Positions 10,907 to 48,929 of a stretch of 53,024 nt of DNA are shown here, one piece after another. The notes under the pieces are model-generated. The model had not been told where the DNA came from and did not search any database. It was given only the letters and a program-made list of their open reading frames with translations. The stretch's first letter is position 1, and each line of letters begins with the position of its first letter. A program made the translations under genes and the position numbers. Source of the DNA: Thermococcus sp. (GTDB lineage: Archaea; Methanobacteriota_B; Thermococci; Thermococcales; Thermococcaceae); contig NZ_WANV01000020.1 in the NCBI RefSeq assembly GCF_015521605.1, forward strand, positions 1 through 53,024, given 5' to 3'.

Positions 10907-10968
10907 TCCGCCCGATGACGAGCGGTTTCGGGTCTGAAGTGTGATGACACCAGCTATCGCCGAGGGCA
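10907..10968 (+). ncRNA. C/D-box guide RNA for 2'-O-methylation of 23S rRNA
   Basis: The boxes are in archaeal order: C (CCGATGA, 10912-10918), D' (CTGA, 10934-10937), C' (GTGATGA, 10941-10947) and D (CCGA, 10960-10963), with a 3-nt D'-C' spacer and a 12-nt C'-D guide. The D guide (10948-10959) is complementary to CGAUAGCUGGU, a stretch I know from conserved 23S domain II (near E. coli 805). The D' guide (10922-10933) is complementary to ACCCGAAACC, also in 23S domain II (near E. coli 675). By the N+5 rule the methylated bases would be the A of GAUA and the G of ACCCG. C and D boxes each differ from consensus by one or two bases, C' and D' are perfect. L7Ae, Nop5 and fibrillarin would bind it. 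Confidence 0.85.
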
Positions 10969-46752: not shown

Positions 46753-47970
46753 TCAGAAGACGCTGAGCTTGTCCTCCAGTATCATCTTCTGTATCTTGGT
46801 TATGTCGGCGAGCCATGCATCTGCTATCTCGTAGGCCGGCTTCTGTATGGTCTCAAGGCTGTAGCCCTTCTTCGGGATGACCTGGACGCTGGCAACGAGC
46901 GGCTCGTCGATCGGCTTGCCTATCTGGCTGAGTATCCTGACGTAGACCTCCTCGACACCTTCGACCTGCTCGGCGATGTCGTTGGCGATGAGCATTGAGA
47001 GGAGGTTGTATATCTTTCCGACGTGGCTGACCGGGTTCTTACCGGCCGCTGCCTCCATGCTCATATGCCTGTTCGGGGTGATGAGACCGTTAACGCGGTT
47101 GCCCCTTCCAACGGAACCGTCGTCTCCAGCCTCGGCGCTGGTTCCGGTGACGGTTATGTAGTAGATGCCCCTCTCCGGGTCGTCGGCGGTGTTGACGTAG
47201 ATGTTGACCTTCCTCTCGGTGTTGGCCTCTGCAACTCCCCTCGCTGCCTCATAGATGGCCTCCTTGACGGCCATGTAGTCGTCCGGGGTGTCGACCTCGC
47301 TGTCGACTATGGCTGCAGCGATGGTAAGGTCTATCTCGTCGCCCTTCCTGAGGCCCATGACCTTGATGTCCTCACCAACGGCGGGATACTTCCTCTTGAA
47401 CTCATCGCTGTTGAGGAGCCTTTCGGTCTCAAGAACTATCCTCTCGGTCTCGCTGAGCGGAGCGTAGCCGACGCCGAAGCTGGTATCGTTGGCAAGCGGG
47501 ATCGGGTTCTCCTTGGCCTTGTTGAAAACACCGACGAGGTCCACGCTTCCCTGCCCGATGCGGGAGTCAATGACGACGTGGTGCTCAAGGTCGAGGTGTC
47601 TGACGGCCCTCCTGAGGTACTCGCGGGCGGCCTTTATGGCGACCTCGTGAACCGGGAAGAGCTCGCGGTCAACTATCTCAACCGCCCTACCCGAGAGAAG
47701 TATGTAAATCGGCTTGATGACCTCGCCGCCGCCGAAGCGCGGGTAGGCCTTACCTCCAACGACCTCAACCTGGTCGGTGTTGTGGTGGAGGATTATCCCG
47801 TACCTCTTGATATACTCCCTGCTGAGGGCCCTGCTGACGGCCTCGGCTATACCGTCAGCTATGCTGTCGGGGTGGCCTATTCCCTTCCTTTCGACGAGCT
47901 CGACCTTCTGCATCTCGACAGGGGTTCTCATGAGCTCCTCAACCACTATGTTCCTAACCTTCTCAGCCAT
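46753..47970 (-). CDS. metK: S-adenosylmethionine synthetase (archaeal type)
   Basis: 405 aa. The archaeal MAT is diverged from bacterial MetK but keeps [54 protein letters not shown], and [10 protein letters not shown]. It makes SAM from methionine and ATP, the methyl donor used by fibrillarin and by radical SAM enzymes such as RaSEA. ATG 47970 follows GAGGTGA; GTG 47979 is in frame. Confidence 0.95.
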
Positions 47971-48014
47971 GATCGTCACCTCTCGAAGTGTGTATGAGCA
48001 GGTCTGTTCATCAC

Positions 48015-48027
48015 TTTATATACTTTT
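48015..48027 (-). promoter_or_regulatory. TATA box of metK
   Basis: Minus-strand AAAGTATATAAAG, about 45-57 nt before the start at 47970. Confidence 0.55.
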
Positions 48028-48078
48028 CGGCATGAATTCAAAAGCCTAATATTCCTGTCGGTTATTGACCCCGAAACC

Positions 48079-48085
48079 CTTAAAT
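48079..48085 (+). promoter_or_regulatory. TATA box of the H/ACA guide RNA
   Basis: CTTAAAT, which places the transcript start near 48108, just before the first hairpin. Confidence 0.6.
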
Positions 48086-48107
48086 TTCTCCCCGAAAATC
48101 TTCCATA

Positions 48108-48272
48108 ACGGAGGCATCCGACGACGCCCGGTGGCCCGGGCCCGGGAGTCAGCTTCCTGCCAGCGATGAGCGGGTGCGACGATGCCGGGCGGACAGGGCT
48201 TGGCCTCCGGACCGCCAGAGACCGCCGTTTGGCGCTCCATGAGGGCGGGGGATCAGCCAAGCCCACACTTTT
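48108..48272 (+). ncRNA. H/ACA guide RNA, two hairpins
   Basis: Hairpin 2: a perfect 9-bp lower stem GGGCTTGGC (48196-48204) with GCCAAGCCC (48256-48264), directly followed by ACA (48265-48267). The upper stem is CCGCC/GGCGG (48212-48216/48244-48248) with G-A pairs of K-turn type above. The pocket strands CTCCGG (48205-48210) and GGATCA (48250-48255) pair with UGAUCC-UG-CCGGAG, the first 25 nt of archaeal 16S rRNA (the region of the Arch21F primer), with the unpaired U between. Hairpin 1: lower stem CGCCCGG/CCGGGCG (48125-48131/48185-48191), then G and ACA (48193-48195); its target is not found. A T-run follows at 48269-48273. Confidence 0.9.
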
Positions 48273-48277
48273 TAAGC
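48269..48277 (+). promoter_or_regulatory. T-run ending the H/ACA RNA and TATA-like element for the translin-like gene
   Basis: TTTTTAAGC lies right after the ACA box. The T5 can stop the RNA, and the same sequence is a TATA box 26-33 nt before ATG 48306. Confidence 0.4.
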
Positions 48278-48305
48278 TTCCACGACAACCTTTCTCGGTG
48301 GGAAC

Positions 48306-48929
48306 ATGGGATTGAAGGAAATTATACGTGAGATACGCGAGGTTCTTGACGAGAAGGACGCGCTTAGGGAAGAGGCACTGAGGCTCACCAGGGAAATAGT
48401 CCGCCTGAGTGGAGATGCTATAAAAGCCCTTCACCGTGGAGAAAAGGAAAAGGCCGCCGAAAGGCTTGACCTGGCCAGGGACAAAGTGACAACCCTCCGA
48501 GAAAAGCTAAGAGACCACCCCGATATATATTTCACGGGCTACGTCCAGAATGCTCACCAGGAGTTCGTGGAAGCCAGCCTGTTCTTTGCGTACATAACGG
48601 GTGGAGAGTTCCCCTCGCCCTCGGAGCTCGGAGTCCCCCATGCTGACTACGCGCTCGGGATAGGCGACTTCATAGGAGAGCTGAGAAGGCGCTTCCTGAT
48701 ACTACTTCTGGAGGGCAACATAACCGGAGCGGAAGAGGTCTACCGTTTCATGGAAGCAACCTATGAAGAGCTGATGACACTGGAGTACCCCAAGGGACTG
48801 GTGAACATCAGGGGAAAGCAGGATCAGGCAAGACACATACTCGAGAGAACCCTTGAGGATCTGACGAGGGCAAAGCTTGGCAGAAAGCTTGAGGAGAAGC
48901 TTGAGGCGGTGGCAGGGGATAACGGATAG
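48306..48929 (+). CDS. Translin family protein
   Basis: 207 aa, all-helical, matching the COG2178 translin/TRAX-like family: ALRLTREIVRLSGDAIKALHRGEKEKAAERLD, HPDIYFTGYVQNAHQEFVEASLFFAYI, GIGDFIGELRRRFLILLLEGN. Glu residues in GDFIGELRR and VYRFMEATYEELMT align with acidic positions known to give RNase activity in archaeal TRAX-like octamers. It would act on RNA or DNA fragments. GGTGGG is just before the ATG. Confidence 0.85.
   Translation: MGLKEIIREIREVLDEKDALREEALRLTREIVRLSGDAIKALHRGEKEKAAERLDLARDKVTTLREKLRDHPDIYFTGYVQNAHQEFVEASLFFAYITGGEFPSPSELGVPHADYALGIGDFIGELRRRFLILLLEGNITGAEEVYRFMEATYEELMTLEYPKGLVNIRGKQDQARHILERTLEDLTRAKLGRKLEEKLEAVAGDNG

Follow-up and report, generated by a model that had tools for sequence, protein, structure and literature searches.

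An orthologue of the H/ACA guide RNA HgcE (Pab105) beside metK in Thermococcus, with predicted targets in 16S and 23S rRNA and a patchy presence among relatives

The window analysed here, a 53,024-nucleotide stretch of Thermococcus DNA, is contig C20 of a 2.03 Mb draft genome. It includes metK (46753–47979, minus strand; Pfam AdoMet_Synthase) and a translin-family gene (48306–48929, plus strand), and the intergenic stretch between this divergent pair carries a gene for a two-hairpin RNA at 48108–48272. The 152-aa open reading frame antisense to the RNA (47976–48434, minus strand) was judged mechanical, because the RNA and the beginning of the translin-family gene both lie within its span. Elsewhere in the window (10911–10965, plus strand), Rfam identifies the C/D-box sRNA sR28, at 58 bits against a gathering score of 39.

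Upstream of the RNA, on the same strand, lies a promoter-like element (48072–48087) composed of CGAAAC, which we take to be a BRE, and TTAAATTT (48080–48087), which we presume to be the TATA box. The first-pass annotation, made from the sequence alone, had given the RNA a TATA box of its own, and this is borne out by comparison: a TATA-like motif is present in the same upstream region of all 54 orthologous loci, compared to 22% of shuffles. A T-run immediately 3' of the RNA (48269–48273, plus strand) is, judging by its sequence, a probable terminator. This T-run overlaps a TATA-like element of the translin-family gene (TTTTTAAG, within 48268–48280), a compact terminator/promoter arrangement that is present in many relatives too. 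A scan for bacterial promoters and terminators, of a type unsuited to archaea, found nothing.

The RNA belongs to a known family. Rfam model RF00060, HgcE (Pab105), matches the plus strand of the window at 48158–48284 with 91.6 bits against a gathering score of 50, and is the only RF00060 match in the metK/translin-family intergenic stretch. Since this model starts within hairpin 1, which it draws unpaired, the boundaries proposed in the first-pass annotation describe the RNA more accurately than the Rfam hit. The two other multi-hairpin H/ACA sRNA families of the same class, HgcF (Pab35, RF00058) and HgcG (Pab40, RF00064), score only 17.1 and 13.5 bits here, nowhere near their gathering scores (70 and 77). 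HgcG exists as a separate gene in the same genome (C4:29498–29773, 195.9 bits), part of which is a weak match to R1, a model built on hairpin 2. The H/ACA guide genes of Thermococcus have been described as orthologues of those in Pyrococcus (PMC4652768), and the RNA at 48108–48272 is an orthologue of the Thermococcales guide HgcE, whose targets are known; the pair of rRNA targets found below is that of Pab105, with 16S position 27 (S27) assigned to hairpin 2 and 23S position 2554 (L2554) to hairpin 1.

Hairpin 2 (48196–48267, plus strand), the counterpart of Pab105.2, has a lower stem of 9 bp (48196–48204 with 48256–48264), all nine of them Watson–Crick, and the ACA box follows directly at 48265–48267, exactly as had been read from the raw sequence. 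Above this stem the pocket is formed by CTCCGG (48205–48210) and GGATCA (48250–48255). The GA at 48218–48219 with its partner TGA at 48240–48242 presumably forms a K-turn, the expected site of L7Ae binding; neither GAG nor TGA varies among the 54 aligned hairpin-2 sequences or the 36 aligned hairpin-1 sequences. The upper stem has 10 layers if A–G and non-canonical layers are counted, its closing layer A48211–G48249 being a mismatch, and the spacing from the ANA box to the upper stem depends on how this layer is treated. The first-pass annotation gave 16 nt, which stands if the count starts from G48248, but under the published scheme, in which productive guides keep 14–15 nt from the ANA box to the upper stem (PMC4652768), A48211–G48249 would be the first layer and the distance 15 nt.

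Hairpin 1 (48124–48195, plus strand), the counterpart of Pab105.1, likewise ends in ACA (48193–48195), as had been noted. Its lower stem has eight of nine pairs before the box (seven Watson–Crick and one GU), A48124–G48192 being unpaired, and it is also detected by model R1, at 26.5 bits. With two hairpins that each have a lower stem, a pocket, K-turn residues and an ACA box, in addition to the Rfam score, the original reading of this interval as a two-hairpin H/ACA guide RNA is upheld.

The support for the fold is comparative rather than energetic. Folding of 48108–48272, which had been put forward as a check, did not help the case: the energy of the whole 165-nt RNA is no better than chance (z −1.10; 27 of 200 shuffles as good) and was rejected as evidence, and the minimum-energy fold of hairpin 2 closes the pocket, part of which becomes self-paired. 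Taken alone, hairpin 2 folds better than chance (z −2.91; 2 of 200 shuffles as good) and hairpin 1 does not (z −1.00; 33 of 200). Relatives were compared using the best-scoring 54 of the 72 genomes above the HgcE cut-off, loci which match HgcE by construction, and it is to these that the pocket and covariation counts refer; 36 of the 54 make up the hairpin-1 alignment, and lower-stem counts leave out locus L087 for hairpin 2 and loci L087 and L093 for hairpin 1. Across the 54 loci 95.2% of hairpin-2 cells are in standard pairs, compared to a shuffled mean of 90.1%, and two-sided changes occur at 8 pairs and in 57 cells, compared to shuffled means of 4.6 and 20.4. Neither the paired cells nor the two-sided changes were equalled in 500 shuffles, which keep the relatedness of the sequences uncorrected. 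Further pair types are closer to expectation (17 against a shuffled 15.1; 50 of 500 shuffles as high), and sliding the partners by 1–3 columns leaves 26–55% paired.

The pocket of hairpin 2 fits the 5' end of 16S rRNA. The organism's own 16S 5' end, a fragment in the draft assembly, reads AATTCCGGTTGATCCTGCCGGAGG, and the pocket forms 12 of 12 pairs with it, CTCCGG with CCGGAG and GGATCA with UGAUCC, around an unpaired UG whose U is U15 counted from AUUCCGG. This is the exact complementarity that the first-pass annotation had claimed. In a search of the 16S and 23S rRNAs of a relative (G005) the same site ranks best, with a score of 24 out of 24, which none of 3,000 shuffled pockets reached (best shuffle 22). 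In each of the 43 complete 16S sequences examined from relatives (23 + 20) the target letters stand at the 5' end, and on the guide side CUCCGG is invariant in all 54 orthologous loci, as is GGAT in their alignment.

The position can be tied to published numbering through Pyrococcus abyssi. One of the genomes searched (G064) carries HgcG at C1:382332–382604, exactly where PMC4652768 places Pab40 of P. abyssi, and is therefore P. abyssi. In the 16S rRNA of that species 34 ac4C positions have been reported, each the second C of a CCG (Coureux et al. 2020, PMC7005279); an offset of 12 on G064 places all 34 on such a C, compared to 5 of 34 for the next best offset. At this offset the predicted U is S27, and S922, S995 and S1017, further tested 16S positions named in PMC4652768, are likewise all U. 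The predicted U thus corresponds to P. abyssi 16S position 27 and to about E. coli U20. PMC4652768 tested 23 guide:target pairs and cites S27 as one of the small-subunit targets among them; the 16S 5'-end uridine picked out in the first-pass annotation is thus, by sequence equivalence, an H/ACA target already tested. That paper gives S27 and Pa105.1-L2554 by name, and the pairing of S27 with Pab105.2 was computed here. When P. abyssi hairpin 2 was scanned on its own 16S, S27 ranked top (score 20); fourth place (score 10) went to S995, which PMC4652768 gives as a site of Pa105.2 that proved non-productive when tested. The 23S of P. abyssi offers one more good site for the hairpin-2 pocket, at position 2794 (score 18), which we did not see named in PMC4652768.

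For hairpin 1 the first-pass annotation had named no target and had suggested matching its pocket to rRNA, which yields a site in 23S. Delimited by the published 10/6/9 layout (PMC4652768), the pocket consists of GGCCC (48133–48137) and GACGAT (48178–48183), the latter identical in 45 of the 54 loci. The 23S target was read from relatives, the organism's own 23S being missing from the draft assembly. The best site on the G005 rRNAs is 23S position 2557; seven published positions all fall on U at an offset of −3 in G005, and of −26 in G064 (7/7 in each), while three further published positions at lower numbers do not all fit in G005. With these offsets the best site is P. abyssi L2554, and the target of hairpin 1 is in print as Pa105.1-L2554 (PMC4652768). 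By pairing alone the match would be unconvincing, as 160 of 3,000 shuffled pockets score equally; other registers of the pocket gave no better target. A tool-free reading of raw sequence is thus confirmed down to the target base, and hairpin 1 gains a target.

Compared to Pyrococcus HgcE (Pab105, RF00060), the Thermococcus RNA has the same two hairpins, pockets and predicted targets, 16S 27 and 23S 2554, and differs in detail. In the 3' half of pocket 2 the present RNA reads GGATCA and forms six of six pairs, whereas P. abyssi reads GGATAA (five of six); the sequence after the lower stem is CTCCGGA here but CTCCGGGG in P. abyssi, and the box is ACA rather than ATA. Across Pyrococcus loci L079–L087 the box after hairpin 2 is ATA, AAA or TCA, not ACA. 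The location also differs: the gene adjoins metK here, and metK is present at 45 of the 54 HgcE loci (together with the translin-family gene at 37), whereas in the nine Pyrococcus loci HgcE lies at a different place, away from metK.

RF00060 exceeds its cut-off in 47 of 61 genomes of the genus and 72 of 94 of the family. Model R1 finds strong matches (at least 54 bits) in 72 of the 115 genomes of the phylum, all of them among the 94 of this one family, Thermococcaceae, and in none of the 21 phylum genomes outside it; the guide is limited to a single family in the phylum searched. A strong R1 match is missing from 22 family genomes, 13 of them less than 90% complete. That leaves nine near-complete genomes, and given that these nine have no good copy HgcE is not essential in the family. 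Five of them (G003, G023, G035, G047 and G078) have metK and the translin-family gene, the latter recognised by visual inspection of the first part of its frame, with a damaged or deleted RNA between. Upstream of metK the RNA is deleted in G003 and G023 (both single contigs), reduced to a 3' scar in G035 (draft) and decayed in G078 (single contig); in G047 (draft) hairpin 2 is broken and hairpin 1 mostly kept. Rfam, run on five of the lesion loci, gives no hit at the gathering score. The remaining four lack HgcE and have a different sequence (G043 and G057, drafts) or another gene (G061, draft; G062, single contig) upstream of metK.

A pattern search for a moved guide to the same 16S site, covering the HgcE-less genomes and G005 as a control, returned 27 places in 9 of 10 genomes, the control among them. 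It relied on ACA boxes and exact letters, and is therefore blind to an ATA box or altered pocket letters. No moved copy was seen, since the control has a 9-bp lower stem and the best other place, among the loci retrieved for the stem test, only seven pairs, five of them Watson–Crick. The 16S target is unchanged in G003, G023, G057, G062 and G078, the five of the nine HgcE-less genomes whose 16S was read.

We mapped the presence of HgcE onto a tree of metK proteins (51 rows), which covers 51 of the 63 genomes in question (54 with HgcE loci and nine without), the Pyrococcus loci without metK and a few cut sequences being left out. The presence label needs seven changes, compared to a shuffled mean of 8.5, and all seven are forced by well-supported branches. 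This suggests that HgcE was lost repeatedly within the family, though the tree is of one gene and its set was chosen by presence. We found no account of the loss of such guides in a literature search conducted largely at the level of titles and abstracts.

Taken together, we consider it about 95% probable that the gene is an HgcE orthologue with its own promoter, in which hairpin 2 is directed at 16S position 27 and hairpin 1 at 23S position 2554. The RNA would be transcribed from the promoter-like element between the divergent metK and the translin-family gene, and each hairpin would be bound by L7Ae, Cbf5, Nop10 and Gar1; a Cbf5 gene is present in the same genome (451.6 bits). Hairpin 2 would then capture UGAUCC-UG-CCGGAG at the start of 16S by pairing on either side of its unpaired UG, and direct conversion of the U to pseudouridine at position 27, and hairpin 1 would pair with GUCGUC-UC-GGGC of 23S and direct pseudouridine formation at position 2554 (both in P. 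abyssi numbering). The modification of the 16S U in this organism is thus predicted from the sequence of guide and target.

That hairpin 2 meets the 16S 5' end by chance, its real target being something else such as an mRNA, is scarcely credible: PMC4652768 does include computed extra targets for Pa105.2, namely the leuS mRNA and a tRNA that the paper itself labels a false positive, but a coincidence would have to account for 12 of 12 pairs equalled by none of 3,000 shuffles, and for the conservation of both pocket halves in all 54 loci while the stems change. There is equally little chance that this copy has itself decayed and is no longer expressed. Such decay or deletion has occurred at the same place in the five relatives described above, whereas the present genome keeps its stems, pockets, K-turn residues, promoter-like element and both ACA boxes intact.

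Another reading concerns the function of the pairing rather than its existence. Within the rRNA itself, UUCCGG is an alternative partner for the target half CCGGAG (helix 1), so that guide and helix 1 would compete, and the guide would have to act before helix 1 closes, or open it. The U3 snoRNA of eukaryotes is a C/D-type RNA without a pocket or pseudouridylation. Through its box A it pairs with the same part of the small-subunit rRNA, helix 1 near the central pseudoknot, and it acts early in assembly; in 18S, helices 1 and 27 of the central-pseudoknot region are the ones bound by box A'/A (PMC9196750). Hairpin 2 might accordingly serve mainly to keep the 5' end of 16S open while the subunit assembles, the pseudouridine being a by-product. 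We regard this as highly improbable, as the ordinary guide geometry, with its unpaired UG and ACA box, fits modification, and the RNA is missing or decayed in nine near-complete relatives.

The HgcE family and its guide mechanism are already established (PMC4652768, PMC6138745), and with guide and targets known, the patchy presence of the gene is the only part of these findings that we have not seen in print. Relatives that lack HgcE and keep an intact 16S target are natural knock-outs for asking whether pseudouridine at 16S position 27 matters. A further, quite unlikely reading is that hairpin 2 not only places the pseudouridine but also serves the 16S 5' end as a U3-like checkpoint, which one archaeal family acquired and later lost again and again, since it would occupy a strand of helix 1 in 16S, and the adjoining central-pseudoknot region, before they fold. 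Were this so, the natural losses with an unchanged 16S target would allow the purpose of the modification to be tested in living relatives.
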